From Clostridia bacterium (GTDB taxonomy: Bacteria; Bacillota; Clostridia; Oscillospirales; CAG-272): a stretch of DNA of 64,000 nucleotides. Shown here in pieces: positions 23,980 through 63,402 of this stretch (positions within the stretch are counted from its first letter, which is position 1; every line of letters begins with the position of its first letter). The stretch lies in the NCBI GenBank assembly GCA_017463125.1, contig JAFTPV010000017.1, positions 1-64,000 on the forward strand, read 5' to 3'. A model generated the notes under the pieces. That model saw nothing but the letters and a program-made list of their open reading frames with translations, was not told the DNA's origin and made no database searches. The translations under genes and the position numbers were made by a program.

Positions 23980-24014
23980 GAGATGTATATCGCACAAGGT
24001 TTATGGAGGTCTTT

Positions 24015-26375
24015 ATGTTTATTGGTAATTTAGAAATCAAGGATTTGCGCTTTACAAGAATGGGAACGGATATAGAAACCGTGCCGACAAGTATTGAAAA
24101 CGGCATTTACACATGGAGCTACGGCGTACTCTCGGACACGGGTCTTGATATTCATATCGAGCTCGGAAGAGAATGCTATGTTGGTACTGTTAAGATACCG
24201 CTTCAGCCGCCGAAGGCATCGGTATATTCCGCCGAGGTAATAAGCGAGGGTAAGATCGTCGGCAGATACGCTGCGGAAACAGGAAAGATAGTCTACGGCA
24301 CGATAACGGTAGAGGTCGGTGCCGTTGCAAAGGAGCTTATCATAAGGCTCTATTCATCTACCGAGGAGATGGTTTTTGCAGTTCCGGAGATAACCGCCTG
24401 CTACGATGACAGCGAGCCGTTTCTTTGGCCTAGAGCGAAAAAAATGCAGTCTGGATGCGGCAAGGTGAAAATTAAAGAAATCACCTCTGACGGCTCGGAG
24501 GACGGCGAATATGTAAAGAACTTTTTACATAACAGGCTCAAAGAGCGCTTTGGCGACTGCTTTGACGCGGGAGGTGTACCCGTAACTATTCGCTGTGACG
24601 CATCAGAGGATTACGACGGTGAGAGATTTACCGTCAGCGTAAGGTCCGACGGTGTTTTGGTGACTGCAAAAAAGAGGCTTACCCTGCTTTACGCGGCTCT
24701 TGCGTTACTCGACATCACTGACGGCGGTGAGCTGCCTATCATCGAGATAGACGACAAGCCTACGAAGGAAATGCGAGGCGTGCATATCGGCATGCCGAAG
24801 AGGGAGAACCTTAGTTTTGTAAAAAGGCTCTTTGAATACGTATTTCTGCCCCTCAGGTATAATCACATTATAGTGCAGTTCTGCGGAGGCGTCAGATACG
24901 ACTCTCATCCCGAGATTGCGGAGGCATACCTTGAAGCCGTCAGAAAGTTTGAGCTGGGACTTGCTCCCAGATTTCCTCATGATTACATGGCGTGCGAGGG
25001 TACGGTGCTTGAAAAGCACGAGGTTTCGGACATGCTCGCTTATGCAAGAGAGCTTGGATTTGAGATAATCCCCGAGCTTCAGACGCTCGGTCACGTTCAA
25101 TGGGTTACAAATGCTCATCCCGAAATTTCAGAGCGTGAGGAAAATGATAAAATCGTTACTGATACCTCTAACGAGGATCTTCGCCCTACTAATTTCTACA
25201 CCCACTGCTACTGCCCCTCAAACGAGAAGAGCTACGAAATAATGTTCGACCTTCTTGATGAGATAATCGAGATGGCAAAGCCCGAAAGATACGTACACAT
25301 GGGTCACGACGAGGTATACCACCTCGGACTTTGCGAAAAGTGCAAAAAAATACCCCACCACGAGCTATTCGCGAGGGATATTATGCGATATTATACTTAT
25401 CTCAAATCAAAGGGGCTTAATGTGGCGATATGGTCGGATATGCTACAGCCCGTTACCCAGTACCAAACATATCCTGCGATAAATCTCGTGCCCAAGGATA
25501 TACTTATGCTCGACTTTATCTGGTACTTCCATCTTAAAGAGGATATTGAAGAAAATCTCTTTGCGGACGGATATCATAACGTTATGATCGGAAATCTTTA
25601 TTCCTCTCATTTCCCGAGATACACGAAGCGAATGATGAATGAAAATCTTTTGGGCGGTCAGGTTTCGCTCTGGTGTGCCATGAACGAGCGAGCTATGGCG
25701 GAAAAAGGCAAGTTCTTCGAGCTTCAGTATACGTCGGAGCTTCTTTGGAATCCCGAAAAGTACACGGAGAATATGCGCTCGGTTTACAACTACGTTATAT
25801 CAAGAAAAATCCAGCCCCGCATGCGCGATGAGCTTCGAGGAGTATACTCACTCTCGGGCTACGAGGAATACGACATTAAGCTGCCCTCAGGCTCGAAGAA
25901 AGGGATACCCTCGGCGCTGTTGGAGGTATGTCCCGATACGGTTATAGCAGACGGTGCTTCCGTAAACGTTGCCAATAGCTTTGACAGGCTTGTTTTTGAG
26001 CAGGCAACGCTTATGCGCGGTCAGCGCAACTCTTGGAAGCCTCTGATAATCTCGGGTGTATATACCATAGAGTACGAGGACGGTACGAGAGAGGAGCTTC
26101 CCGTAAGATACAGCGGAAACGTACAATGGCTGAAGGCAAAATACGGTATGCCGCTCTTTGAGGCAAATTACCGTCACGACGGATATATCGCAACGTGGCA
26201 GTGCGACCCCGCTTACGAAACGACAAACGAGCTTGGTGAGGCTCTGCTGATAAGCGGTCACGTTTGGGAAAACCCGCATCCTGACAAGAAAATTTTGACA
26301 GTTTCTTATAAAGCTGACGAGGCAGATTTTGCGGTCCTTATTCTTGCAGGTCTTAAGGGCTTCAAGAAGAGGTAG
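24015..26375 (+). CDS. GH20-type beta-N-acetylhexosaminidase
   Basis: Glycosidase of family GH20, which removes terminal GlcNAc or GalNAc by substrate-assisted catalysis. The 786-residue protein has an N-terminal beta-rich domain (about 1-235), the barrel with RGVHIGMPK (about 255), IIPELQTLGHVQW, and the catalytic Asp-Glu pair in HMGHDEVY (Asp432, Glu433), then a C-terminal beta-sandwich-like region (about 630-786). There is no signal peptide, so it probably acts inside the cell on imported glycans. ATG 24015 is preferred: GGAGG (24005-24009) sits five bases before it, and an earlier in-frame ATG (24003) overlaps that site. It ends 14 bases inside the convergent MecA-like gene. Confidence 0.88.
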   Translation: MFIGNLEIKDLRFTRMGTDIETVPTSIENGIYTWSYGVLSDTGLDIHIELGRECYVGTVKIPLQPPKASVYSAEVISEGKIVGRYAAETGKIVYGTITVEVGAVAKELIIRLYSSTEEMVFAVPEITACYDDSEPFLWPRAKKMQSGCGKVKIKEITSDGSEDGEYVKNFLHNRLKERFGDCFDAGGVPVTIRCDASEDYDGERFTVSVRSDGVLVTAKKRLTLLYAALALLDITDGGELPIIEIDDKPTKEMRGVHIGMPKRENLSFVKRLFEYVFLPLRYNHIIVQFCGGVRYDSHPEIAEAYLEAVRKFELGLAPRFPHDYMACEGTVLEKHEVSDMLAYARELGFEIIPELQTLGHVQWVTNAHPEISEREENDKIVTDTSNEDLRPTNFYTHCYCPSNEKSYEIMFDLLDEIIEMAKPERYVHMGHDEVYHLGLCEKCKKIPHHELFARDIMRYYTYLKSKGLNVAIWSDMLQPVTQYQTYPAINLVPKDILMLDFIWYFHLKEDIEENLFADGYHNVMIGNLYSSHFPRYTKRMMNENLLGGQVSLWCAMNERAMAEKGKFFELQYTSELLWNPEKYTENMRSVYNYVISRKIQPRMRDELRGVYSLSGYEEYDIKLPSGSKKGIPSALLEVCPDTVIADGASVNVANSFDRLVFEQATLMRGQRNSWKPLIISGVYTIEYEDGTREELPVRYSGNVQWLKAKYGMPLFEANYRHDGYIATWQCDPAYETTNELGEALLISGHVWENPHPDKKILTVSYKADEADFAVLILAGLKGFKKR

Positions 26376-49118: not shown

Positions 49119-50198
49119 TTAGCCTACAAGACCGGAACGCTCGATACCCTGTACAAGATACTTCTGGCAGAACAGGTACATAACAACCAGCGGAGCTATT
49201 ATAAGAATACCGGCGGTGTTCTGAAGAATGTTCTGATACAGAGACCATACGGGATGGTTACCGTAGAGTATCTCGAGAGAGGTGGGAGCGGTTGTAATAT
49301 CGGGCATTACCCAAGGACGATTAGAGCCGATGAAGAAGAGACCCGAATAGAACTGGTCTGTCCACTGCCATGAGAACGAGAACAGGAATACCGTTATCAT
49401 CATGGGAACGGAGAGCGGGAGAATTATCTGCACGAAGGTGCGGAAGGTTCCCGAACCGTCAACGTACGCTGACTCCTCAAGCTCATCAGGAACGCCCTTA
49501 AAGAACTGACGGAGAAGATAGATATAAAGACCGTTCTTAAAGGCTATACCGCCAAGGGAGAGAATTATAAACGGCAGGTACGTGTTTGTCAGCTCTATCT
49601 TACTACCCGTAAGAGTAGACAGAATACCTGTGGTTTCCGTAGCCATTACGTGACCAAGGTCAAACGAGGTAAAGTGTCTTACCATTGAAAGCTCGAGCGC
49701 ACTGTGAGGAATTATCATAGTTATAACAACGACAACCATAATGAGTCCGTTGCCCTTGAACTTAAACTTTGCAAGACCGTAGCCTACGAGGCAGGCAACC
49801 ATCGTCTGAATCAAAGCACAAATCGCAGAGAGGAACAGCGTGTTAAAGAATGCTCCAAGCTGAACACCCTGTGAGTTCGTGTGGAAGAAATATCCGTTAT
49901 CCGATATAATGTACTTATACTGATCAAGAGTGAATGCTCTGGGAATCAGAGATACCGTAGCATCTGCTACATCGGAAGGGGACATAAACGAGCCTGCTAT
50001 CTTTGAGAAGAAGGGGAAAAGGATTACGTAGGAAACGCCGAGCATCAATATGAACTTGAATATATTGACGACTACCTTTATCCACGTGTTAGAGGTTTTG
50101 AGTTTCTTGAGCATACGCTCCTTAAAGGTGAGCTTGCCCTCATAGTCAACCTGAATTCTATTTTTTGTTTCTTTAGTTATTACTGTTTTTGAATCCAT
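49119..50198 (-). CDS. carbohydrate ABC transporter permease, MalG type (second pair)
   Basis: Inner-membrane channel half, MalG/AraQ-like. The 359-residue protein has an unusual 40-residue charged N-terminus, then six membrane segments and the EAA motif EESAYVDGSGTFRTFVQIILPLSVP (starting near 254), which docks with the ATPase. The C-terminus YLVQGIERSGLVG is typical of the family. It lies 13 bases after its partner permease. The ATPase must come from elsewhere. Confidence 0.93.
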   Translation of the reverse strand: MDSKTVITKETKNRIQVDYEGKLTFKERMLKKLKTSNTWIKVVVNIFKFILMLGVSYVILFPFFSKIAGSFMSPSDVADATVSLIPRAFTLDQYKYIISDNGYFFHTNSQGVQLGAFFNTLFLSAICALIQTMVACLVGYGLAKFKFKGNGLIMVVVVITMIIPHSALELSMVRHFTSFDLGHVMATETTGILSTLTGSKIELTNTYLPFIILSLGGIAFKNGLYIYLLRQFFKGVPDELEESAYVDGSGTFRTFVQIILPLSVPMMITVFLFSFSWQWTDQFYSGLFFIGSNRPWVMPDITTAPTSLEILYGNHPVWSLYQNILQNTAGILIIAPLVVMYLFCQKYLVQGIERSGLVG

Positions 50199-50210
50199 AC
50201 TGACACCTCC

Positions 50211-51200
50211 TTAATCCCTTCTCTGATAGAAGACGAACGACGAAGCTACTGCGGCAACAAGAGCTATAATAATCGCTATAATAAGGAAATACATCCAATA
50301 CATTGCCGTTGCCTGCTCCATCTGTGCCTTATCGTAAATATTGGCAATATAGTTCATCGCAGGGTTATTTGTTCTTGTGAAGGAGTCGATAACCGTGTAA
50401 ACCGCGTTTACGAGAATCATAGGCGAGATCATCGGGAAGGTTATCTTCCAGAAGGTTTCCCAGCCGGATGCGCCCTCTATCTGACAAGCCTCGTAAATCG
50501 AGGGGGAGATAGACTGCAGACCCGCAAGGAAGATAAGCATCTGTACACCGGAGTAGTTAATAATGTTATAAACGTTATTTACAACGCCTACAACGTACGT
50601 AACAAGCTCACCGCCGACCTTCATGCTTGCAAACAGCTGCTGAACGTCAAGAACCGATATGATCTCGTTAGCACTTGCACCCGAGCCGTCATCCGTGCCG
50701 GCACCGGCAGAATCTGACATCTGGTCAGCAAGGTTAATGGAATCCATAATACCCGTTGAAATAATAACGGGAACGAAGAATATTGCGCGGAATACTGCGC
50801 GTCCGAGCATCTTCTGATTAAGGACAACTGCTATAAATAGAGAGAATACTATGATAGCGGGAACCTCAAAGAGAAGCTGCTGAAGTCCTGCGAGAAGCTG
50901 CTCTGTGAAGGTAGAGTCTGCGAAGGGCTGAGTATAGAAATCAAGACCTACGAACTCAAGCTCTATTCTACCAAGAGCGGCTTCTTCACCGGAAAGAGGT
51001 ATGATCTTATTAAAGCTGAACCAAATCGAGTCAATAAGAATCGGAAGGTAAATAAGAAGCACACCGAGTATGAAGGGGAGGACGAAAACGTATCCCGCCC
51101 TCGCCTTTCTGGCATCAAGAGACGCTCTGCGCTTAAAAACAGACTTTAGCATCGCAGAAAAGGATTTTTTATCTGTTGTGAGATTCATATTATTATCCAT
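50211..51200 (-). CDS. sugar ABC transporter permease, MalF type (second pair)
   Basis: Partner channel half, 329 residues, with a first membrane segment near 38-60 and an EAA motif SIYEACQIEGASGWETFWKITFP (about 235). A polar Asp/Ser/Gly-rich outer loop (about 150-190) is inserted between membrane segments. GGAGGGA precedes the ATG. It follows the large secreted protein by 14 bases and precedes the MalG-type gene. Confidence 0.93.
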   Translation of the reverse strand: MDNNMNLTTDKKSFSAMLKSVFKRRASLDARKARAGYVFVLPFILGVLLIYLPILIDSIWFSFNKIIPLSGEEAALGRIELEFVGLDFYTQPFADSTFTEQLLAGLQQLLFEVPAIIVFSLFIAVVLNQKMLGRAVFRAIFFVPVIISTGIMDSINLADQMSDSAGAGTDDGSGASANEIISVLDVQQLFASMKVGGELVTYVVGVVNNVYNIINYSGVQMLIFLAGLQSISPSIYEACQIEGASGWETFWKITFPMISPMILVNAVYTVIDSFTRTNNPAMNYIANIYDKAQMEQATAMYWMYFLIIAIIIALVAAVASSFVFYQRRD

Positions 51201-51213
51201 TTAACGTCCCTCC

Positions 51214-54200
51214 TTACTGAATTTTTACATAACCGGATCCATCAAGTGTGATACATCCGTCTTTGTCAACGTAATTTGCAATATTGGTATGAACATCTGC
51301 ATCGAGTTTAAGCTTAACGCTATATACGTTGTAATTGAGGATAAACACCGTTTCCTCACCGGTTACGGTATCTCTGTAGGTTACCATTGCAACGTTCTTG
51401 CTGGAACAGGTATACTCGGTTGTAACATAGTCATCATCTGTTGCATACGACGTTGTGATATAATTGTACTTTGACTTATATTCTATGATGCCTGAATCAA
51501 GAGCAACCTGAGCATAAGAGTTATCATTTGCTCCCGGGTATGCAGTTTCAAAAGCGGTGACGATATCGGAAACCGATTTTGAAACCACGTCATAGAGTGT
51601 CATATCAGCATTTGCCGCAATTCCCATATCAGCAAGCTCTGCTACGGTAAGAACCTCTTCCTTTGCCTCCTGCTCATCTACGTTAAGAACGGAGAGAAGC
51701 TTAGCAACAACGGACGCCTTGTCGATAACGGCGGCAATTCCCGCATACTTTGCCTTAGCCTCAGGGTCCTCACGGAGATCTGCCGCAGCACTTGCGATAG
51801 CATCCTCGAATATTTCAGAGGTTCTTTCAGCAAACTCGGTTATAAGGTGGTCATAGTTTTCAACTACTTCCTCACGGTCGATAAGACGCTCGGCAGTCAG
51901 CATAATATGATCAACGATTTCTGCGGTCTGAAGATCACCGATAGCCTCATTAATAACCTTGTACTGCTCAACTATCTCGTCCTTCCAGTTGTGATAGTCT
52001 ACACCGTAATACTTAGAAAGGTCAGGATCATCCTTCAGATAATTGGTGTTCTGGTAGCAAAGAATGTAATAGAGGCTTGCTCCGTTCTCTATAGAACGAA
52101 GGATTTCGTAATCCGAGGATCCGGAATAGTTGATAGGTGAGCCTGCGTAATTAACATATCCGTGAAATACAAGTCCATAGAACGGAACCGTATAAGAGGA
52201 ATACATATAGTGGCTAGAGTCTATGGGTGCATTGAGCACATGGTCAACGTACTGCATAGCGTAAATATTACCTGCATCGGTCATAACCGAATAATCGGAT
52301 TTCATCTTAGCAAACAGGCTCTTAACGTATCCGAGAGATCTCTCGCGGTTTATCGCGTTCTCTTTATCGAAATTAGAGTTAAGATCCGAGCCGAGTGTAG
52401 CTACGGAAAGACCTGTTGCATCATATTTGGAATAATCATTGAGGAATTTCTCGTAAAGCTCCTCGTAAGAGTCGGAAGAAACTACGAGAGTGAAGAGAGA
52501 TTCATACTCCTGAAGAACGGAGTTGTAAACCTGCTTTGAAGCATATCTGTTATCAACCATAAGTGCAGCGTTGCTTCTGCGGCTGACGCCGTCAAACAGC
52601 TCTTCTTTAGCTATATAAAGGAAGTCAAAGTCGGGATAAACGCCGAAATTGTATCCTTCTGATGCCTTTGCGTTAACATCTTCAGCTACACTGAGAAGAT
52701 CCTTAAATCCATTATCTCCGCCGAGCGAGCCCTGCCACCATACTTTGGCGGGATAGGTGAAGGACATACCGCCGTTTGCATAGCCTGTAAGACGGAAATT
52801 AATATTCTTTACGCCCGAGCCTGAAAGCTCGTTATACATATCCTCAACGTCACTAAAAGTTGTAAGAGGAGTTGATATAACGACAGGGAACGAAAGTATC
52901 TTTTTCGTTACGTCCATAGCACCGAGTGTTTCGATATAAAGCGGAACACTGTCCGTCGTATCCTCGGCCTTGATAGCTGTAAGAATATTATTACCCTTAA
53001 GATAATCACGATAGCACTCTGCCATACCGACGTAACTTGTATCGTATCCACCAACGTCCTCGGTGAAAGCAGACTTATCGGTCAGCATAGTTACTTTAGT
53101 CTTGAATGAACCCTCGTATACCGACTCGGAAGCGATATAATAGAAGCCAAGACCGCTTACCGAAATAGTTTCGGAAAGGTCACAGATATCTGTCGGCTGC
53201 GGGTTATATATCGAATAAGTCATCGCATACTTGTGCGTACTACCTCCCGAAGCAAATCCAAGAGAGGTGAGCGCGGAGCCCTCCTCAACTATAGAGAAGA
53301 AGCCGTTAGTAACAGTATCGGAACTGCCCTTTGCTTTAGTCTGCTCGGTAGCGTTTGCATCAGTTACAAGTCCGTAAACCGGAACGGTAGTCTGCTCAAG
53401 GTGAGCACGTGTTACACCAATCGTAGCATAGCCGTAGTCCTCACCGTACATAGGAACGGTATAGCTGGGCTGAATTGTGCGAATATCGTCGAACTCAACT
53501 ACGGCTCCCGAACCGTCGGGGAAGAAGATATAACCGTCACGGCTCTTGTCACCTGCTCCGAAATACTTAAGAGCTGTAATAGACTTTACGGTATAATTTG
53601 TGTTGTTGTTTACGAAATAAGGCTCACTCATGGGAACCTCGTAATACAGTTCACCATTTGCATTAAGAGTATAGTTGATAGAAACGAGGAAGCTTGCCGA
53701 ATTTACATCAGCAGATACATATCCGGTTTTTGCTTGATCGGCCTTTGCCTCATCCTTGGTATAAAGCTCTGCAAGAATTTTTGAAATAGCGTTATTCACA
53801 AGGCGGTATGTTGTAAGATCCTCACTGTTGATTCTGTAAACAACGTTACCGTCACCAACAGCCGGGATAGTTTCAAAGAGGATCTTATCGCGATCTTTAT
53901 CAAGATTTGCAGGATCAATACGGCTGTAATTGCTGAATACAACCTTTACTGCCTCGAAATACGACTGCATTTCTCTGAATTCATCAGAATATACGCCAAG
54001 AACATTTTCAGCATACTTTTGAACAGTATCAACAGCATTTATAACCTTGCTCTTATGATATCCGGGTTCTCTGTGGATCGCATAATTATTAAGGTCGTAA
54101 TCAACGCCGTTTGGAGCACCGCAGTACTCGTTCATAAGCTCAACGATTTTTGCAAACATCGGCTTTGCGATATTATCAACGAAATCAGTTGCCAATATAG

Positions 54201-54786
54201 TAGCGGGAACTCGGAAATCCGCAGCATTTACGCCAAGAGCATACTGAACCGAAATACCCTTTCTGCCATCAGGCTGCTCTGCAATCTCAGTTACGTTAAG
54301 AGCAAATCCCTTATTGAGCTCGGATAAGCTGTTATAAGAGCCTGAGCCTGCAACCGTAGGATTGGAAAGGTCGGAATACTCTATCTCTATCTGGCTCATT
54401 ATCGTATTTGAAAGAGCAGTAGAAGCATAATAGGGGTCGACCGGGTTACTTGTAAGTATCTGACCGGTTTTTGTATTCTGGTAATAAACAAATCCTGTAT
54501 ATCTGTTTACATAGAGATTATAGCCGGCCGCGCTGATCGAATCAAGATAACCCTTCTCAAGCTCATCTGCGAGCATCTTGTCTGCACTGGTGTAATTATA
54601 GGAGAGATACTCTTTTACAAAAGACTGAAGGGACGCGCGTGAATTAACAGACTCATCCACCTCGCCCATAACGACTGTAACGCCGGACGGTTGCTGCGCT
54701 GATGCGGTGAACGGAATAACCGAAACGATGCTTGTAAATAGCATCATAAGCACAAGGGCAGACGATAATATTTTATTAAATTTCAT
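51214..54786 (-). CDS. secreted DUF5696-like large protein, putative glycosidase
   Basis: The 1190-residue protein has a clear signal peptide (1-30, ending TASAQQ). Its middle and C-terminal region alternates helix and strand as in a TIM barrel (about 600-1000; VWWQGSLGGDNG near 690, LGSDLNSNFDKENAINRERSLGYVK near 795, SPINYSGSSDYEILRSIENGASLYYILC near 880). This resembles the DUF5696 family that sits in ABC sugar-transporter loci of Firmicutes. The N-terminal half is a beta-rich domain with a helical part (about 60-330). There is no recognised anchor. Catalytic residues are not proven. Downstream of AGGAGG, a five-codon ORF (ATG 54793) overlaps the start. Confidence 0.78.
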   Translation of the reverse strand: MKFNKILSSALVLMMLFTSIVSVIPFTASAQQPSGVTVVMGEVDESVNSRASLQSFVKEYLSYNYTSADKMLADELEKGYLDSISAAGYNLYVNRYTGFVYYQNTKTGQILTSNPVDPYYASTALSNTIMSQIEIEYSDLSNPTVAGSGSYNSLSELNKGFALNVTEIAEQPDGRKGISVQYALGVNAADFRVPATILATDFVDNIAKPMFAKIVELMNEYCGAPNGVDYDLNNYAIHREPGYHKSKVINAVDTVQKYAENVLGVYSDEFREMQSYFEAVKVVFSNYSRIDPANLDKDRDKILFETIPAVGDGNVVYRINSEDLTTYRLVNNAISKILAELYTKDEAKADQAKTGYVSADVNSASFLVSINYTLNANGELYYEVPMSEPYFVNNNTNYTVKSITALKYFGAGDKSRDGYIFFPDGSGAVVEFDDIRTIQPSYTVPMYGEDYGYATIGVTRAHLEQTTVPVYGLVTDANATEQTKAKGSSDTVTNGFFSIVEEGSALTSLGFASGGSTHKYAMTYSIYNPQPTDICDLSETISVSGLGFYYIASESVYEGSFKTKVTMLTDKSAFTEDVGGYDTSYVGMAECYRDYLKGNNILTAIKAEDTTDSVPLYIETLGAMDVTKKILSFPVVISTPLTTFSDVEDMYNELSGSGVKNINFRLTGYANGGMSFTYPAKVWWQGSLGGDNGFKDLLSVAEDVNAKASEGYNFGVYPDFDFLYIAKEELFDGVSRRSNAALMVDNRYASKQVYNSVLQEYESLFTLVVSSDSYEELYEKFLNDYSKYDATGLSVATLGSDLNSNFDKENAINRERSLGYVKSLFAKMKSDYSVMTDAGNIYAMQYVDHVLNAPIDSSHYMYSSYTVPFYGLVFHGYVNYAGSPINYSGSSDYEILRSIENGASLYYILCYQNTNYLKDDPDLSKYYGVDYHNWKDEIVEQYKVINEAIGDLQTAEIVDHIMLTAERLIDREEVVENYDHLITEFAERTSEIFEDAIASAAADLREDPEAKAKYAGIAAVIDKASVVAKLLSVLNVDEQEAKEEVLTVAELADMGIAANADMTLYDVVSKSVSDIVTAFETAYPGANDNSYAQVALDSGIIEYKSKYNYITTSYATDDDYVTTEYTCSSKNVAMVTYRDTVTGEETVFILNYNVYSVKLKLDADVHTNIANYVDKDGCITLDGSGYVKIQ

Positions 54787-54807
54787 TTTTCATTTACCTC
54801 CTGCACC

Positions 54808-57800
54808 TTACATTATTCGGTTAAATATTTCGGTAAACAGCGAGATGATGAACGTAGCCATCTTCATAACAAGGCTGGAGAAGAGGATTGCTATGAACAT
54901 AATAACGGCCATAGCCACTATTGTACCGATAGTTGTGATAACGTTCTTTCCGGTAGTGTAATCGTGAGTTACGACCATACCGAAGAAGAGGAGTATACCC
55001 ACCCAAACGTATCCAAACGTTACAAGCAGGCTGATGATTCCGCCCTCACTCACAGTAAGAACGTTTGTAAGAATAGTAGAAAGAATTACGAATACGGGGA
55101 GCGGTGCGAGTGAATAGCAGGTTGCGATATAAATATCCTTAAGGCTTCCCTCACCGTCAAAGAGCGTCGTAAGACACCAGTTACCGACAACCCAAAGAAG
55201 AACGGGAACGAGAACCGATATTACCTGAAGGAATACCGTTGAATAATCACCCTTGGGGTTATGCATATATCCCGTACCGATAGCCTGATAGAAGAATGCT
55301 ACTATCGCAGCACCGAGAATTGTAGTTGCCGCTCTTACGGAGCCGCGCTTCTCGTGCTTAAGATCCCAGAAGCCGTCGAAGGGATGGAATATAAGGTGAG
55401 TTACATAGATAAGCTCTTCTCCATAGGTCTTTTTACCAACCTTAAGAGCGGTTGCCTTATTTTTCTTCTTAGCCCAACCAAGGAACTTGAAGAAGAGGAG
55501 AAGAAGAGCAATTACGCCTACGATAAGAGGAATCATCCATAGAGAGAGAATGTCCTTACGCACAGCAGCAAATGCCAAAGCGTACTGCTCCGTTTCATAA
55601 GCGCTGGCAAGCATCTTCATTGCTCCATCATAATCGCCCTGGTTGTAAAGCGCCTTACCTATACCTATATAAGCAAGGTCAAAGTTGTTGTTTCTCGTAA
55701 GAACGTTTTGCCAATGTACGATAGTCTGGTCGTACTTATGCTTGTTTTCACTCTCGAGAGCTGCCATTATCATTTCACAGTAGTCGGTAGGATGATAAAC
55801 GACAAGATATTCACCAACCTCCGTTTTATCAAGGAGGAGCATATTGTATTTATAATCCTTACCAAGCTCATCCTCGGAAACGAGAACGGGCTGATATGCG
55901 AGTGCTACGCTATTTGCGGTATTACCGAGCTGCTCGCCCTTATTACCAAAAGCAAACAAAAGGTTACCGTTTTTATCATAAGTGAAGGTTCTCTGTCTTG
56001 ACGAGTCGAGTATAGTCCACGTGCCCTCGTCACCTACTGCGACGTCAATTATCTTTGAAACGTCTTTTTCAGTTGCGGTAATGTCGTTAAGAAGAACTTC
56101 TCCGCCGGGATCGAAGAATCCGTTTCTCTTCATAATCTCGACACCCATAGAGTTAAGCTTCTTAACAGGAGAATAGGTTGCAACCTGAGATGTACCTTTA
56201 CTCGTGTTAAACTGCTGCTTAAGGTCCGATGTCTCCGAGAAGCTAATGGTTGCATAAACGAAGCCGTCCTCGTCAACCGTCAGATTGTTGAAGGGATCCG
56301 GGAGCTTAAGGATTGACGACTGCTTCTGCTCAACGCTCTGGAAATTCTTCCAGATCTGATCCATAATATCGGTCGTAACCTTCTGTGCGCCTATAAAGCC
56401 TGTGAATTTACCCTCGTTTGAGAGTACTATGATGCCCTTGTAGCAGCTCTTTGAAACAACGAATATTCTACCGTATTTGTCAACTGCAACTGCGGTGGGA
56501 ACGAATTCACCCTCATCAAGAAGACCTGCAACAGGGGGCTGCTCTATCGTTTTTACATAATTATAATCCTTATCAAAGACAACAATTGTGTTATCTCCGG
56601 TATTACAAACGAAAATGTGGCTGGAGCCGTCCACCATAAGATCGGGGCTGGTTACAAACACGCCGCTCGGGGAGTTAAGCGTTCTATCCTGATTATAATC
56701 ATCGATATACGTGCTGATAACACCCATAACCTTATAATCTCTGTGATTGAGAATTACAATACGATTATTTTCCTTATCAGCAATATAGACGTTACCATCG
56801 TGGTCAGTAACAACGTCGCTTGCTCCGTTGAGCTTTGTATTACCGAACTTTTCAAATACAGAGTAGCAGTAGATAGTTGCAAGATCCATAGGATTCTTGT
56901 TACCCTGCTCTACCGTAATAGCATTCCACTCGTCCATTCCCTCGCCGCTATAATAAACAGACTTGAGGTTCGTGGCACCGAAGAAAGCGTCTTTGCCAAT
57001 CTTTGTAACGTTCTTTCCGATAAATACATTTCTTATATCTCTGTAAATTTCGGTACAAACAGTGCTTTTTGTAGCGTCATAGTTGACATCTTCAGTTGCC
57101 TCAAAAGCAGTGACGTTGAAAAGATTTGCCGCGATTTCAGCTACAGGACGTAAATTATATTCCTCGGGAATCTTTACGTTAACGTTTGTAAGACCACTGA
57201 TCTCGTAGATCAGCTTTCTGATCGATTCGGTATCGATCTCGCCAACAGCTACATTTTTGCCCTGATTTCCATCAGCCGCAGAAACATCCGCGATTTTTGA
57301 ATCAAGCGTGGTTCTTAAGGCAGACAGGAACTGATCGGGTTCAACGTAAGTACCGTCATCATTTACGATCTCGGAAGCCGAAAGGGTAACCTTTACGTCA
57401 TTTACCGATTCATTAGGATAAGTTGCTCTATACTCGGCTATTATGGAATTCATTCCCATAACAATATCGATAATTCGCTCGATCGATTCCGTAGCGAAGC
57501 CGGTTACGATATAATACTCGCCGTCCTCACTAAGCTTATAATCAAGCTCGGAAATGAAGTCAATGCCGTTATTGGTTTCCTTCTGAGGCCAAATAACTAT
57601 ATCCTCGCTGGAGTCGTAGTGCCAATAATTGCCGCCTAGCAGATTCATTGCTGCGGAATCATAATTCAAAACATCGGGGGTGTAAGCGTGAGGTGAGGAA
57701 AGAGGCTCACCGTCGATAGAATAGGTATATGTGTCATAGGACTCGTATGCGGAGGCTGCAATGGTGCCAAAGAGCATTATGGCAACTATTGCAAAAACAA

Positions 57801-57825
57801 CGATTTTTGTAAACGTATTTTTCAT
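54808..57825 (-). CDS. NHL-repeat, TPR and Yip1-like membrane protein
   Basis: A 1005-residue protein with a signal peptide (1-25), a family-typical N-terminal motif (TYSIDGEPLSSPHAYTPD, about 34), an unusual insert (about 50-320) that includes a leucine-rich BspA-like segment (FIGKNVTKIGKDAFFGATNLKSV, about 266-288), NHL/beta-propeller repeats (about 328-700; GNVYIADKENNRIVIL near 347), a TPR-like pair (about 712-745), a membrane helix and a C-terminal Yip1-like domain with five membrane segments (about 805-1005). It may be a membrane-held sensor or scaffold for the ABC system. Family and order are clear, function is unknown. Confidence 0.78.
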   Translation of the reverse strand: MKNTFTKIVVFAIVAIMLFGTIAASAYESYDTYTYSIDGEPLSSPHAYTPDVLNYDSAAMNLLGGNYWHYDSSEDIVIWPQKETNNGIDFISELDYKLSEDGEYYIVTGFATESIERIIDIVMGMNSIIAEYRATYPNESVNDVKVTLSASEIVNDDGTYVEPDQFLSALRTTLDSKIADVSAADGNQGKNVAVGEIDTESIRKLIYEISGLTNVNVKIPEEYNLRPVAEIAANLFNVTAFEATEDVNYDATKSTVCTEIYRDIRNVFIGKNVTKIGKDAFFGATNLKSVYYSGEGMDEWNAITVEQGNKNPMDLATIYCYSVFEKFGNTKLNGASDVVTDHDGNVYIADKENNRIVILNHRDYKVMGVISTYIDDYNQDRTLNSPSGVFVTSPDLMVDGSSHIFVCNTGDNTIVVFDKDYNYVKTIEQPPVAGLLDEGEFVPTAVAVDKYGRIFVVSKSCYKGIIVLSNEGKFTGFIGAQKVTTDIMDQIWKNFQSVEQKQSSILKLPDPFNNLTVDEDGFVYATISFSETSDLKQQFNTSKGTSQVATYSPVKKLNSMGVEIMKRNGFFDPGGEVLLNDITATEKDVSKIIDVAVGDEGTWTILDSSRQRTFTYDKNGNLLFAFGNKGEQLGNTANSVALAYQPVLVSEDELGKDYKYNMLLLDKTEVGEYLVVYHPTDYCEMIMAALESENKHKYDQTIVHWQNVLTRNNNFDLAYIGIGKALYNQGDYDGAMKMLASAYETEQYALAFAAVRKDILSLWMIPLIVGVIALLLLFFKFLGWAKKKNKATALKVGKKTYGEELIYVTHLIFHPFDGFWDLKHEKRGSVRAATTILGAAIVAFFYQAIGTGYMHNPKGDYSTVFLQVISVLVPVLLWVVGNWCLTTLFDGEGSLKDIYIATCYSLAPLPVFVILSTILTNVLTVSEGGIISLLVTFGYVWVGILLFFGMVVTHDYTTGKNVITTIGTIVAMAVIMFIAILFSSLVMKMATFIISLFTEIFNRIM

Positions 57826-57839
57826 TTTAGTCCTCCCTA

Positions 57840-58730
57840 TTAGTCCTTCATACCCGAAGAGCCCATCGTTTCGATAATCTGGCTCTGGTTAAGGACAAAG
57901 ACAGCAATCGGGACGATCATCATAATAACTATCGCAGCAGCACCGGCACCTGAACGGGCGATACCGCCGGTGACGATCTGGTTAATAGCGTAGTTGAAGG
58001 TTTTAAGCTCCTCGGAGTGAATGTAAATTGACGAACCGGAGTTCCAGAGTGATTTGAAGCACTCAATCATAAGAGTGAGCCACGCAGGCTTAACCATAGG
58101 CATTGCTATGATAAGGAAGGTTCTAAACTCACTAGCGCCGTCAAGACGCGCAGATTCAAGCACCGTATCCGGAACAGACGATTCCATAAACTGCTTCATC
58201 AGGTAAAGACCCATTGTTCCTGCCATAGAGGGTACGATTATCGAAAGATAAGTATCGACCCATCCGAAAGCTGAAAGAATGATGAAGTGAGTCACCTGGT
58301 TAACGGTTGAATGGAACATAAGCGACATTACTATCATCTGGAATATAGCGTTTCTGCCGGGGAAACGAAGCTTTGCAAGCGAGTAAGCCGCCATAGAAGC
58401 AAATACAAGGTTACCGCAGGTACCGCAGATAGTAATGAATACTGTATTAAATATGTATCTTGAGAAAGGAACCCAAGAGTCACTCATAAGCGTAAACAGC
58501 TCTGAGAAGTTATCAAACGTAGGATTGATAACGTAGAAGCGAGGCGGGAACATAAACAGCTCGTCAAGGGGCTTTAATGACTGTATCACAACGTAATACA
58601 TCGGGAAGAACATTATGATACCGAGTATGGTAAGCATAAAGGTAATGCCCGCGTCACCGCCCTTGGAACGGTTCAGAACGACTCTATGACCTCTGGTACG
58701 AAGTTTTTTTACTGCTGCCATATTACTCAC
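57840..58730 (-). CDS. carbohydrate ABC transporter permease, MalG type (first pair)
   Basis: A 296-residue permease with six membrane segments and an EAA motif TVLESARLDGASEFRTFLIIAMPMVKP (starting near 191). It pairs with the MalF-type gene just before it, with which it overlaps by eight bases. Distinct in sequence from the second MalG-type permease of the same operon. Confidence 0.94.
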   Translation of the reverse strand: MSNMAAVKKLRTRGHRVVLNRSKGGDAGITFMLTILGIIMFFPMYYVVIQSLKPLDELFMFPPRFYVINPTFDNFSELFTLMSDSWVPFSRYIFNTVFITICGTCGNLVFASMAAYSLAKLRFPGRNAIFQMIVMSLMFHSTVNQVTHFIILSAFGWVDTYLSIIVPSMAGTMGLYLMKQFMESSVPDTVLESARLDGASEFRTFLIIAMPMVKPAWLTLMIECFKSLWNSGSSIYIHSEELKTFNYAINQIVTGGIARSGAGAAAIVIMMIVPIAVFVLNQSQIIETMGSSGMKD

Positions 58731-59688
58731 CTACCTTCGAAAGTGCCTTCTTAACAAGGATGTTTGATGCAAACATCATAATGAAGAGCACGACGGCTAT
58801 CGCTGACGCGTAACCGACCTCATATCTTGATCCACCGTAGTCACTAAGGTGGTGCATTATCGTATGCGCCGCATAGTCAACCGAGGGGAATCCGCAAAGC
58901 GCGTCAACTACCGCACCGAATCCGAAGGAGTTGGTTATCGCAAGGACCGCACCGAACATCATCTGAGGACGCATGGTGGGAAGGGTGATATACCAAAGCT
59001 CCTGCCAACGATTCTTGATGCCGTCAACTGCTGCAGCCTCGTACATAGAGCGGTCAACCGTCTGGAAGCCGGCGATGAACGAAAGGAACGCAGTACCAAG
59101 CGACGTCCAAAGAGCGACAATGATACACAGCGGCATAACGTACGCCGCGTCCTCAAACCACAGTATCGGTGAGGTTATAATTCCTAAATCCATCAGCGTT
59201 GCGTTTGCCCAACCGTAAGAGTCGGACGAGAAGAGCGTTTTCCAAATCAAGTAAACCTGACCGGAGATCGAGGGAGCGTAGAATACAAGAGTTACTACCG
59301 CACGGATCTTCGGAGGAAGCTCGTTTACAAACCACGCAACAAGAAGCGAAAGTATGTAAGAAACGGGACCTGTTACACAGGCGAATATAAGCGTATTCTG
59401 AACCGCCAGCATAAAGATGTCGTCATCAAGGAAGAGTCTTGTATAGTTATCAACACCCTTCCAGTTAGGCATCTCAAGCATGTTGAAGTCCGTCAAACTC
59501 AAAAACATTGAAAGAAGAACAGGTAATACTGTAAATACAATGAAGAGAATCAAAAACGGGAACAACATAAAGTAAGCCGTTTTATTACGCTTCATTTCTT
59601 TCCATGTCCACTGTAACTTTGACATCTCATCGCGCTGAAGAGGGCGATTCTTATCAGTCTTTTTTACAATTTCTTCTGACATAGTCAT
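58723..59688 (-). CDS. sugar ABC transporter permease, MalF type (first pair)
   Basis: A 321-residue permease with six membrane segments; the EAA motif is SMYEAAAVDGIKNRWQELWYITLP (about 212). The start overlaps the end of the solute-binding protein gene by four bases, so the three are translationally coupled. Confidence 0.94.
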   Translation of the reverse strand: MTMSEEIVKKTDKNRPLQRDEMSKLQWTWKEMKRNKTAYFMLFPFLILFIVFTVLPVLLSMFLSLTDFNMLEMPNWKGVDNYTRLFLDDDIFMLAVQNTLIFACVTGPVSYILSLLVAWFVNELPPKIRAVVTLVFYAPSISGQVYLIWKTLFSSDSYGWANATLMDLGIITSPILWFEDAAYVMPLCIIVALWTSLGTAFLSFIAGFQTVDRSMYEAAAVDGIKNRWQELWYITLPTMRPQMMFGAVLAITNSFGFGAVVDALCGFPSVDYAAHTIMHHLSDYGGSRYEVGYASAIAVVLFIMMFASNILVKKALSKVGE

Positions 59689-62600
59689 TCTCCTTTGCTT
59701 TCAAGTTTGGGAGGAGCATTAAGCCCCATTTCCTCCCACGTCGTCTGGCTGTAAAGATACTCGCTAAACTCATCTCTCTTACGAGTAAGCTCGGAGTTGA
59801 TAGCGTCAATGTAGCTCATCATAGCCTCGTTTGCGGGAAGACCGTCGTTATATACATCAAGGAATGCGAATTTCATATATCTTGCGATAATGTAGGAGCC
59901 GGGATAGTTAACTATTGCATCCATATGAGCCATCTGATCAGAGATAGCAGCCTTCTCCTTTGCAGTCCAAGAAAGGTCGTTTATTGCAAGCTTATTTGCG
60001 GTTTCGTACTTAGCTGCAGGACCGATAAGAGCAACGATGGAGTTACCGTAGCTTGCCTGAACCTCACGGCTGGTCTGCCACTGCATAAACTGCCATGCTG
60101 CAAGAAGAGTATCGATGTCATCCTGGCAGCCGTTAAGAAGAACGGTTGCGCTAACGCCCGCAAGAGAGTCGTAGTTATAGATTTCCTTGCCGGTTTCCTC
60201 ATCCTCGTATATAGAACCGGGAAGCGAGGAGAATTCCCAAACGCCGCCGATCTCGGATGCGAATACTACAAGGCTGTTGTATATACTAATATAATCACCG
60301 ATGGTAATAGGCATCTCACCCGTTCTGAAACGGTTTGCCGTATCGAAGGATACGGGAAGAGAGTGCTCTGTGTAAAGGCTACATACGAAGTCAAACGCCT
60401 CAAGCGAAACGTTGGAGTCAAGATTTATAGCAGAGCCTGCCCATCTGGAATCGTATTCATCCCCCTCGTATCTCCACATGCTCTCACCCATCTGGTAAAT
60501 CATAAAGTCAAGAGCGCTGACGTAAGATACACCTATCGTCATATTGTTAGACTGCAGCATAGGAAGCGAGCCGAGAAGCTCATCCCATGTTTCCGGAACC
60601 TCAAGTCCGAGCTCGCCAAGAACGTCCATACGGTAGAACATCATAGCGAATGACATCGTCATAGGAAGACCGTACGTCGTGTCGGAAAGAGTAAGAGTCT
60701 TCATCGCAGCATCGGCAAATATTTCAGAGCGCGATGCCTCCTCAAACGCGGAGGAAACAAGCCTTAATCCACGAGAGGTCATCTCCTCGTTTGAAAGCTT
60801 GGTTTCAGACTTTATCTCGTTGCCGTTTGCATCTCTGTACCAATAATTATTAAATACAGCATTTTGCTCTTCGGTAAGGTTTCCTGCATTTCCGCTGACA
60901 CCTACAATTGCATTACGTATAGCATAGTTGATTACCTCGGAGGATCCAAGTCCCAGATATACGTCAGGACCCTTTCCTGAAAGAATGGAAGGAAGAAGGG
61001 TTCCGCCGGTAACGAGCTTAAGCGAAACGCCCTTGCCGTACGTATCGGTAAATCCACCCTTTGCGTCGATCATAGAACGCCAGATCTGTGACTGGTCACG
61101 ACCCATTGCGAGCCATACCTGAACCGCACCCTCTTCGGCCTGTGCCTCCTCGGTAAGACCCATTTTATCATAATCGGTGAAGAATGAATATATGAAGGAA
61201 GAAATCTCAAACCAAATGGACTCAAAGAAGTTTGCGTTTGCATAAGGGATATCGTCCTCATCAGAATCAGAGGGAACGATAGTAACACTGTCGAGCATCA
61301 TAGAGCTCGTCTTGGAATCGTTTATCCACGTACCGAGAGTACCGAGATAAGACTTAAGGTTTGACATATTTTCAGCAATCTTTTCACCGCCGTCAGCACC
61401 CATAGTAGTCAGGATTCTGGCAATCGTGTCAAGAGTTGCTATATGAGAACCGTTAGTTCCGCAAAGCGCCTCAAGCTCGTCTGCAACGGTGGTAAGAGTC
61501 TTTGCCTGCTCAAGAAGGCTTACAAGAACCTCGGGCATATATTTCATAAAGCTATAATCCTGGTTCTTATCGGGCTCGGCGCCTGTACGCTGAAGGATAC
61601 GAAGATAGCAGTTGTTGATTATATTAAGAGATTCCTCAACAGTCTTTATCTTCTCCTTAAGGTCACCGAGAGAGCACTCGAGATAGAGAGTGTACTCATC
61701 GCCCTCCTCAAAGAAGAGCTCGATTTCCTTCTTGGACTGAACGGGATTGCCGTCCTCGTCGGTTACAACATTACCGTTATCGTCAAGCTCGTCATAGTAG
61801 TAGCCCATATACTCGGACTGCCACTCATTGCTATAGCCGAAGCGGATACGGTAAGCCTCGTCAAAGGGAACCTCGGCAGTCTCACCATAGATACCGCCGG
61901 AAAGCTTCAAGGTACGGCAGATGAACATACCCTGAAGGGTGTCCTGCCTAAACCTTGCACCAAGCTTGTAGAAGCCGGTTTCATCAACGGTAAAGGTGTA
62001 TGCAGCCCACTGTCCCATCGCGCTATAGCTATTTTCGCCAATAACGTTATACAGCTGCGCCTTAGAGCTTACGGGAGAGTTAATCGCAGAGGTGTTATCG
62101 TTAGTTGCAGCAACAGAGGAATCAGAAATGTAATCGGGGAACTCTGCCTCAATTACCGTGCCAACGCCATTTGCAGCTTTAGCATCATCGTTAAACTCTG
62201 TTCTGATATAATTCAGATAATCTGCGTAAGAACGAGCACTGGACTGCTCGTCAATATATGTATTTCCGTGAGCATCAGTCTTGTAGTTCGGTGCATCGGC
62301 AGGAACGATCTTTATAGACTTGACGATCATAGGCTCCTTGATAGCCTCAAGGGTTATCCACTGCGATCCCTCGGCAAGATAGAACTTAAGCGCACCGTCG
62401 GAATAACCGGAGGAGTCGGTAACCATATGCTTCGTCCATGTGGATATAGCCTTTGCGGAGGGGGCCATAGAGTTACCGTTAATATCCTGAGTAATCTTAT
62501 AGGTGGTAACGGTCTGCATAAGCTTGCCGTTTTCCGGATAAGTCTTGGTAACATACTTATAATAGCCCTTGTTATCACCGTCGGCTATGTGCTCATATTC

Positions 62601-63305
62601 GGTAACAGAGCCAACCGATGTGAAGGGACGCTTCTCCGCAGGAACCTCATAAGGCTCACTTACGGTCTTATAGTCGTATATCCAATGCTTGTCAAAGGAT
62701 ATGCTGCTGACCTCGTCAAAAGGAATTACGCCTCGCAGTGAGAGCTTACGTTCAATCGCGCTGACGCTACTCTTAGTAAGAATCGGAACAGTGTTTTCTC
62801 CGTCAACGTAGCTCTCGGCATCGATAATACAATCAAAATACTCTATTTCGATAGTATAGAAACCGGAAGCTCCAACCTCAATGTCGAAGTTCCAGGTAAC
62901 AGAGGCCGCCTTACCATCCGAGCTAACGGCAGGAAGAAAGACCGACATGGCCTTATCCTCTTCGGAAAGCTCGCTCCAATTTCCAGGAGACTTGGCAATA
63001 GAAGCCGCAACCTCCTTGCTATCAGAGACCTTTATCGCATCGCCGTTAAAATCGGTAACGGATAAAGAAATTTCCTTGCGAGAGTCACCGTTAATGCTAT
63101 CCTTGTGAGAAAGCAAGTATGCTTCGTACGACGACGTAGTAAGCAACGACTGCATTTCCTCAAGAGTAGCGGCAGTACCGCTCTCGCCTTTGAGAGAGCC
63201 GGTCTTTACAGACTCACTTGCAAGTGACGTTACGCCGAGTGCGCCAAAGGCCAGCACTACAGAAAGCATCATCGCAACAACTCTCAAAAAGATCGTTCTT
63301 TTCAT
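59685..63305 (-). CDS. giant extracellular solute-binding protein with carbohydrate-binding-like domains
   Basis: The 1206-residue product begins with a signal peptide (MKRTIFLRVVAMMLSVVLAF, about 1-30). The first part (30-715) holds two beta-sandwich, CBM6/35-like pieces: SVTWNFDIEVGASGFYTIEIEYF (about 125) and GQWAAYTFTVDETGFYKLGARF (about 425), plus a helical coiled stretch (about 560-680). From about 722 to the end is an ABC solute-binding domain of the sugar type (VQVWLAMGRDQSQIW, GKGPDVYLGLGSSEVINYA). The start is ATG 63305 with GGAGG ten bases upstream; a longer frame has no binding site. Typical solute-binding proteins have 400-550 residues, so the N-terminal 700 are an added module. 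Confidence 0.85.
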   Translation of the reverse strand: MKRTIFLRVVAMMLSVVLAFGALGVTSLASESVKTGSLKGESGTAATLEEMQSLLTTSSYEAYLLSHKDSINGDSRKEISLSVTDFNGDAIKVSDSKEVAASIAKSPGNWSELSEEDKAMSVFLPAVSSDGKAASVTWNFDIEVGASGFYTIEIEYFDCIIDAESYVDGENTVPILTKSSVSAIERKLSLRGVIPFDEVSSISFDKHWIYDYKTVSEPYEVPAEKRPFTSVGSVTEYEHIADGDNKGYYKYVTKTYPENGKLMQTVTTYKITQDINGNSMAPSAKAISTWTKHMVTDSSGYSDGALKFYLAEGSQWITLEAIKEPMIVKSIKIVPADAPNYKTDAHGNTYIDEQSSARSYADYLNYIRTEFNDDAKAANGVGTVIEAEFPDYISDSSVAATNDNTSAINSPVSSKAQLYNVIGENSYSAMGQWAAYTFTVDETGFYKLGARFRQDTLQGMFICRTLKLSGGIYGETAEVPFDEAYRIRFGYSNEWQSEYMGYYYDELDDNGNVVTDEDGNPVQSKKEIELFFEEGDEYTLYLECSLGDLKEKIKTVEESLNIINNCYLRILQRTGAEPDKNQDYSFMKYMPEVLVSLLEQAKTLTTVADELEALCGTNGSHIATLDTIARILTTMGADGGEKIAENMSNLKSYLGTLGTWINDSKTSSMMLDSVTIVPSDSDEDDIPYANANFFESIWFEISSFIYSFFTDYDKMGLTEEAQAEEGAVQVWLAMGRDQSQIWRSMIDAKGGFTDTYGKGVSLKLVTGGTLLPSILSGKGPDVYLGLGSSEVINYAIRNAIVGVSGNAGNLTEEQNAVFNNYWYRDANGNEIKSETKLSNEEMTSRGLRLVSSAFEEASRSEIFADAAMKTLTLSDTTYGLPMTMSFAMMFYRMDVLGELGLEVPETWDELLGSLPMLQSNNMTIGVSYVSALDFMIYQMGESMWRYEGDEYDSRWAGSAINLDSNVSLEAFDFVCSLYTEHSLPVSFDTANRFRTGEMPITIGDYISIYNSLVVFASEIGGVWEFSSLPGSIYEDEETGKEIYNYDSLAGVSATVLLNGCQDDIDTLLAAWQFMQWQTSREVQASYGNSIVALIGPAAKYETANKLAINDLSWTAKEKAAISDQMAHMDAIVNYPGSYIIARYMKFAFLDVYNDGLPANEAMMSYIDAINSELTRKRDEFSEYLYSQTTWEEMGLNAPPKLESKGE

Positions 63306-63338: not shown

Positions 63339-63356
63339 AAAAAGGCGCAACACGCC
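63339..63356 (-). promoter_or_regulatory. hairpin with T run in the operon leader
   Basis: On the minus strand GGCG (63356-63353) pairs with CGCC (63347-63344) around a five-base loop and is followed by TTTTT (63343-63339). It lies about ten bases after the predicted transcription start and could be a small attenuator. The stem is only four or five pairs. Confidence 0.35.
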
Positions 63357-63373
63357 TATCTATATACGCAAAT

Positions 63374-63402
63374 ATTATAACATATAAAGTGCCGAAAGTC
63401 AA
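63374..63402 (-). promoter_or_regulatory. promoter of the 14-kb ABC/DUF5696 operon
   Basis: Minus-strand TTGACT (63397-63402), a 17-base spacer and a perfect TATAAT (63374-63379), about 70 bases before the solute-binding protein start. Confidence 0.75.

Follow-up and report, generated by a model that had tools for sequence, protein, structure and literature searches.

The polysaccharide utilisation locus is an established concept for Gram-positive bacteria. Among described importers, the closest are CUT1-type ATP-binding cassette (ABC) transporters that draw on a shared ATPase; these include AraNPQ of Bacillus subtilis, which uses MsmX (PMC5730181), and Athe_0595-0598 of Anaerocellum bescii, which uses MsmK (PMC12838199). 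A second point of comparison is glycoside hydrolase (GH) family 129, with NagBb (PDB 5wzn) and ZgGH129 (PDB 5opq). The unit described here consists of seven genes at 49119-63305 in a window of 64,000 nucleotides, namely positions 1 to 64,000 of contig JAFTPV010000017.1 from the Clostridia bacterium assembly GCA_017463125.1 (Oscillospirales; CAG-272). The seven genes probably make up one cell-surface transport machine that imports oligosaccharides and that contains a non-catalytic DUF5696 subunit and a propeller subunit. Measured against the shared-ATPase importers, the unit is known by its parts: it has the same SBP_bac_1-type binding protein, the same BPD_transp_1 permease pair with an EAA loop, and an ATPase encoded outside the operon. 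What sets it apart is a second permease pair, a giant binding protein that bears a further two beta-sandwich modules, and two constant additional subunits, one with a GH129 fold and the other an NHL/Yip1 protein. In reading order, the unit and its domains are as follows.

59685..63305, minus strand: giant solute-binding protein, 1206 aa, with a start resembling a signal peptide, a pair of beta-sandwich modules with a helical insertion, and a C-terminal CUT1 binding domain
61272..62942, minus strand: N-terminal beta-sandwich modules of that protein, residues about 122-678, from the strand pattern of the predicted model; weakly CBM35/CBM6-like in some relatives
59763..61139, minus strand: solute-binding domain of that protein, residues about 723-1181
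58723..59688, minus strand: permease P1a (UgpA/PotB-like), BPD_transp_1, EAA loop conserved
57840..58730, minus strand: permease P1b (UgpE-like), BPD_transp_1, EAA loop conserved
54808..57825, minus strand: membrane protein, 1005 aa, with a signal-peptide-like start, an insertion, an NHL propeller, a TPR-like stretch, a transmembrane helix and a Yip1 domain
54889..55398, minus strand: Yip1 domain of that protein, residues 810-979 (Pfam, E 7.7e-15)
51214..54786, minus strand: DUF5696 protein, 1190 aa, with a signal-peptide-like start and GH129 fold, probably a non-catalytic subunit (Pfam, E 7.4e-126)
51895..53742, minus strand: DUF5696 domain of that protein (Pfam, E 2.9e-127)
50211..51200, minus strand: permease P2a, BPD_transp_1, EAA loop conserved
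49119..50198, minus strand: permease P2b (MalG-like), BPD_transp_1, EAA loop conserved

A preliminary description of this DNA had proposed a tight minus-strand operon with gaps of -8 to 21 bases, and all seven open reading frames (ORFs) indeed lie at the proposed places on that strand, separated in reading order by -4, -8, 14, 21, 13 and 12 bases. Its list of parts holds as well, since Pfam and profile searches place BPD_transp_1 on four permeases, Yip1 and NHL over cut-off on the membrane protein, DUF5696 on the secreted protein, and an SBP_bac_1-type domain on the binding protein. The EAA loop, which couples a permease to its ATPase, is kept in all four permeases, and the permease pair expected of a CUT1 importer occurs twice. 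By sequence, the unit belongs to the CUT1-type ABC importers, with permeases in two pairs and a binding protein of giant size.

Evidence that these genes belong together comes from relatives. Sixty loci were compared as regions of about 13-20 kb around Yip1/DUF5696 matches, in three sets of 20 drawn from the window's family, from the order's other families, and from the class and phylum (15 genomes); they were chosen for flank length and spread, and show the surroundings of these genes rather than their frequency. The seven genes are collinear on one strand in 20/20 family, 20/20 order and 19/20 class/phylum loci (59/60 overall), and the exception (L134) lacks P1b between P1a and the Yip1 gene and carries a P1b-like gene downstream. 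Among the best 80 of 258 relatives in a collection of named genomes, the order is complete in 66, while the other 14 are cut off by a contig end where the missing genes would lie. The two sets overlap in five loci of identical DNA, and loci counted as complete include some whose binding-protein gene is cut, either at a contig end (L201, L208, L219) or by the choice of region (L113, L121, L125). In L121 the P1b gene and in L125 the DUF5696 gene are each split in two around opposite-strand ORFs (442 aa, and 498/263 aa, respectively), perhaps through insertions of mobile DNA. The unit was to be taken as chance if the seven genes did not stay together in other genomes; they do stay together, in the same order from family to phylum, and a chance neighbourhood is ruled out by the order kept in both sets.

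A search of the window's family with the Yip1 protein matched 92 of 98 genomes, two of them weakly (G910, G929), which leaves 90/98, including one genome (G907) visible only in part. DUF5696 matches over cut-off were found in 26/299 phylum, 96/391 class and 104/197 order genomes, in samples that partly overlap and with counts that take in stand-alone relatives. The unit is present in Butyrivibrio and Paenibacillus as well, and the plasmid annotation labels its parts one by one.

Whether P1 and P2 work in a single complex is another question on which gene order bears. It is possible, if doubtful, that a single operon holds two separate importers for different substrates, with no physical association. 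Outside the family, the first gene downstream of the unit was scanned in 16 of 27 loci and encodes SBP_bac_1 in 8, a carbohydrate-active or -binding protein in 5 (GH26, Glycoamylase, a ricin lectin, and CBM65 twice), and other products in 3 (LtrA, an ABC exporter, and one protein with no match); a second SBP_bac_1 gene after P2b favours two importer halves in those relatives. Set against this is the placement of two unusual genes between the pairs, kept in all of the 60 loci but L134, along with the identity matrices of the 60 loci, whose between-gene correlations of 0.71-0.93 include a contribution from shared species history. The values are 0.89-0.93 within a group made up of DUF5696, the Yip1 protein and the P2 pair, 0.92 between P1a and P1b, and 0.82-0.86 for the P1 pair against that group. 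Where two genomes carry paralogous copies (G331, G412), these pair across the genomes and not within them, for 7/7 genes (L125 with L128, L126 with L129); the other five paralogous copies compared pair irregularly, and a binding-protein identity of 1.00 between L130 and L131 is an artefact of overlapping regions.

The secreted DUF5696 protein has a GH129 fold over most of its length according to both profile and model comparison. Against PDB sequences, the broader A2 profile led to GH129; the A4 profile gave only unlikely matches (interferon gamma, huntingtin and TATA-box-binding protein) and was set aside. A kinship of DUF5696 with alpha-amylases was likewise dropped. The three weak Pfam matches examined were two amylases and one DUF6259 protein, and for this reason weak DUF5696 matches in control genomes say little. 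The GH101 endo-alpha-N-acetylgalactosaminidases lie farther away than GH129, and mapping of the catalytic residues was confined to GH129. A profile of stand-alone DUF5696-related proteins matches NagBb (E 5.6e-79) and places their invariant D353 and E396 on NagBb D435 and E478, which we take to be the nucleophile and the acid/base, respectively. Mutants that appear in titles of PDB entries are D764N and E796Q for GH101 and D486N for ZgGH129. When stand-alone and cassette proteins were aligned together, both the catalytic Asp and Glu were present in 5/5 stand-alone proteins (L136-L140). The 141 proteins from the seven-gene cassettes (those of L097 and L115 were left out through the first choice of ORF) have the nucleophile Asp in 7 cases, the acid/base Glu in 24, and both in none, and the counts are unchanged when only the 136 distinct proteins are considered. 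The corresponding positions in the window's protein are given below.

52396..52401, minus strand: A796-T797, aligned with the nucleophile position of GH129 but not Asp
52276..52278, minus strand: D837, aligned with the acid/base Glu of GH129

Compared with NagBb and ZgGH129, then, the cassette proteins lack the Asp/Glu pair and are encoded inside a transporter operon, and the window's protein carries large helical insertions. These two long insertions (residues about 199-354 and 969-1085 of the predicted model) are strongly reduced or missing in short class/phylum-level members. In a tree of 66 proteins, one branch with support of 99 separates the 5 stand-alone from the 61 cassette proteins, although one of the stand-alone branches is very long. 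The secreted protein had been thought to cut or hold a glycan. Because none of the 141 cassette members keeps both catalytic residues, despite the fold, holding fits better, and cutting finds no support; the protein would be a non-catalytic, glycan-handling subunit. As for the stand-alone proteins themselves (L136, L137, L138, L139 and L140), they keep both residues, their joint profile strongly matches NagBb, and they are likely to be true GH129-type enzymes under the DUF5696 label.

The giant binding protein starts at an ATG preceded by GGAGG, and its predicted model (residues 26-1206) has a predicted local distance difference test (pLDDT) score of 86 and a predicted template modelling (pTM) score of 0.82. 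A Pfam scan of its own sequence gave no match; in a genome search with SBP_bac_1 the protein is over cut-off, and a profile built from its alignment matches sugar-binding proteins of known structure (best E 1.3e-22). When the N-terminal modules of nine relatives were scanned with Pfam, L124 matched CBM_35 at 28.5 bits (cut-off 28) and, below cut-off, CBM_6 at 24.8 bits (cut-off 28.9), L120 matched GH115_C at 25.3 bits (cut-off 24.1), and the others gave matches below cut-off or none. The beta-sandwich modules are absent from the VIA-align rows of the model, which were filled by the binding domain, and those rows hold no evidence of a new fold.

In the 1005-aa membrane protein, Pfam finds one NHL repeat over cut-off and TPR below it, and a hydrophobic stretch (residues 757-787) is followed by a lysine-rich stretch and then by the Yip1 helices. 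The NHL and Yip1 parts occur as separate ORFs in at least 6/20 order-level and at least 11/19 complete class/phylum-level loci; the remaining loci show a single ORF, though short Yip1 ORFs were possibly missed. Residues about 62-330 form an insertion that is weakly leucine-rich-repeat-like (4gt6, E 0.0035). A similar insertion is seen in the 997-aa protein of the closest relative (L076 = L142, one contig), and the proteins of L144 and L153 are similar in length. That the propeller/Yip1 protein links capture to the permeases is a guess.

None of the seven genes encodes a MalK/UgpC-type ATPase. In the window's genome (G000; 1.9 Mb, 92% complete), a single ATPase passes the UgpC cut-off; its gene lies on contig C25, away from the unit. 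By elimination, given the conserved EAA loops and the lack of another such ATPase among those found, this protein would be the motor of P1 and P2. Co-occurrence of UgpC with the unit was considered as proof and found not to be decisive, UgpC also being present in six family genomes without the unit's Yip1 gene. In the same genome, a search with P1a matches only P1a and P2a, and SBP_bac_1 finds two proteins, the second of which is PotD-like, with a PotC-like permease next to it and a PotA-type ATPase nearby. PTS_EIIA_2 has no match there, and the sole PEP-utilizers_C protein found is pyruvate phosphate dikinase; two GH3 proteins are encoded. By these searches, the unit is the only CUT1 set found in this 92% complete genome (CUT2, MFS and other carriers were outside the search), and uptake by the phosphotransferase system (PTS) may be absent, within the limit set by the missing 8%.

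Taken together, these parts suggest a mechanism. The giant protein would catch oligosaccharides with its C-terminal CUT1 domain, while the modelled beta-sandwich modules at its N-terminus could hold the polymer. P1a/P1b and P2a/P2b would then form two import channels powered by the lone UgpC/MsmX-type ATPase encoded elsewhere. The DUF5696 protein, of apparent GH129/GH101 glycosidase descent and with its catalytic pair gone, could now serve as a glycan-binding or guiding subunit, and the NHL/TPR/Yip1 protein, a membrane-anchored propeller by predicted topology, might join the outer parts to the permeases. In many relatives such a machine would take up fragments of plant mannan, xylan and beta-glucan, to judge by the neighbouring genes, and in the window's family it would be a near-universal importer of a sugar. 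A bolder and tentative proposal is that of a widespread class of Gram-positive glycan importers, in which a dead GH129-type glycosidase and a membrane-anchored NHL/Yip1 propeller belong permanently to a double ABC importer that hands long or surface-bound chains over from the binding protein to one permease pair or both. Such a class would be a functional counterpart of the Bacteroidetes Sus system and the main route of sugar uptake in a family of gut Clostridia possibly without a PTS.

A glycan is the presumed substrate on account of the genes that surround the unit in relatives. DUF5696 and Yip1-type proteins had been said to occur beside carbohydrate ABC genes, and a glycan setting in relatives is upheld by 40 scanned neighbours, hand-picked and all outside the window's family (hence counts and not rates), of which 12 carry a glycoside hydrolase domain: GH26 in four, GH43 in two, and GH35, GH3, GH9, GH10, MGH1-like and Glycoamylase in one each. 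CBM35, CBM27, regulators and a MalK-type ATPase are likewise found among them. Near the copy on plasmid pNP243 of Butyrivibrio fibrisolvens lie genes for GH43, a histidine kinase and a response regulator, as well as two more binding proteins, and the plasmid copy of Paenibacillus cellulosilyticus has a UgpC ATPase gene directly upstream. Downstream of the Paenibacillus copy (L223, 17760-26983) come four genes for LLM flavin-dependent oxidoreductases and a further two binding proteins, which hint at an unusual substrate and suit the glycan reading less well. Some class/phylum relatives and Butyrivibrio resemble Gram-positive polysaccharide utilisation loci in having an importer beside glycosidases, lectins and regulators. 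The window differs, with a glutaminase gene next downstream and, as compared by size and strand, no constant flank in its family.

Another reading of the same neighbourhoods is that the unit is mainly a sensor, with DUF5696 and the propeller/Yip1 protein reading surface glycans and the permeases merely tuning the response. Histidine kinase and response regulator genes beside some copies (L127 and Butyrivibrio) point that way, but the preserved ATPase-coupling loops and the inconstant flanks of the family copies make this very improbable. It is also conceivable, though rather unlikely, that copies in the window's family serve to import or recycle a glycan made by the cell itself or taken from the host (wall, capsule or mucin), and not one of plant origin. 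This would agree with the presence of the unit's Yip1 gene in nearly all family genomes, with a partial GH20 protein encoded in the same window, and with the mucin O-glycans that are targets of bifidobacterial GH129 and GH101 enzymes of known structure (PMC8106489). Kinship of fold, however, leaves the ligand open, as PDB titles describe ZgGH129 as a 3,6-anhydro-D-galactosidase crystallised with a carrageenan oligosaccharide, and the herbivore-gut origin of many of the nearest named relatives fits either view.

A number of observations weigh against an importer with a non-catalytic DUF5696 subunit. With respect to catalysis, the stand-alone set used for comparison comprises five proteins only; the nucleophile alignment is uncertain by one residue, as in the LSLRDLG motif of L116-type members, where hhalign places Asp and MAFFT Arg; and with a tolerance of +/-1 residue one cassette member (L117) has both residues. 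Moreover, the acid/base place is occupied by Asp in 60 and by Glu in 24 of the 136 distinct members, and with an acid there in 84/136, residual or altered catalysis could be imagined from the alignment. As to the motor, UgpC is over cut-off in 83/98 family genomes, including all six that lack any Yip1-gene match, and is absent or below E 1e-100 in 13/98, some of which carry the unit. With regard to the glycan setting, 28/40 scanned neighbours have no glycoside hydrolase domain, the P. cellulosilyticus copy has the flavin-dependent oxidoreductase genes for neighbours and not glycosidases, and no flanking gene is constant in the window's own family by size and strand.

A rival view sees DUF5696 as a working glycosidase that belongs to a new GH129-related family and relies on other residues, in which case the unit would be an ordinary locus for binding, cutting and importing. 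In its favour are the complete GH129 fold, the frequent acid at the acid/base place, and two barrel acids, E619 (Asp/Glu in 129/141) and E900 (Glu in 139/141), the only positions among the acidic residues at 600-930 of the window's protein that are acidic in more than 85% of members. Yet the nucleophile Asp is rare and never accompanies the Glu, and E900 is common to four of the five enzymes but lies off their mapped catalytic places. In addition, each of D424, Y447, D450 and N840 is shared by over 90% of cassette members, and none of them is found in the five enzymes (Y447 and D450 being gaps there), as expected for a new role. An active enzyme is therefore unlikely, and a glycan-handling subunit that no longer cuts is preferred.

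Beyond the seven coding sequences, the window contains the following features.

63374..63402, minus strand: promoter-like site TTGACT-17-TATAAT with TG ahead of the second hexamer, 11/12 consensus bases
63343..63357, minus strand: short G+C-rich hairpin with a run of T after it, in the 5' leader between promoter and start codon
47927..48844, minus strand: glutaminase gene, next downstream and outside the unit (family scan)

The near-consensus site agrees with the earlier claim of one strong promoter. That it is the only one is supported by position, the scan by itself being insufficient: it found 46 sites against 27.9 expected from shuffles, including a further 11/12 site inside P2b (49592-49564). 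The closest relative has the same promoter layout upstream; a loose promoter pattern upstream of 68/88 binding-protein genes had no control and was not used. The leader hairpin could possibly act in regulation, and by eye a hairpin of differing sequence occupies the equivalent place in the closest relative. When the glutaminase and ten other proteins of the window were scanned, one partial GH20 domain was found about 23 kb away; it is the catalytic domain, in part, of a 790-aa protein (24003-26375, plus strand). A 1265-aa protein (12158-15955, plus strand) combines AAA_11/AAA_12 helicase domains with a C-terminal MTES_1575 nuclease domain, a type of protein that occurs among defence genes.

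The unit had been presented as undescribed, and no description of it, nor any of DUF5696, was found in the accessible portions of open-licence literature on DUF5696, Yip1, NHL and importers. DUF5696, bacterial Yip1 and the NHL/TPR propeller, for none of which a function turned up here, would become parts of one testable machine, and their arrangement suggests that a glycosidase fold was recruited into a nutrient importer minus its catalytic residues. The unit's Yip1 gene is present in 90/98 genomes of the window's family, and class/phylum copies lie by GH26, GH10 and GH43 genes; the identity of the substrate therefore bears on the uptake of complex glycans by gut and soil Firmicutes.

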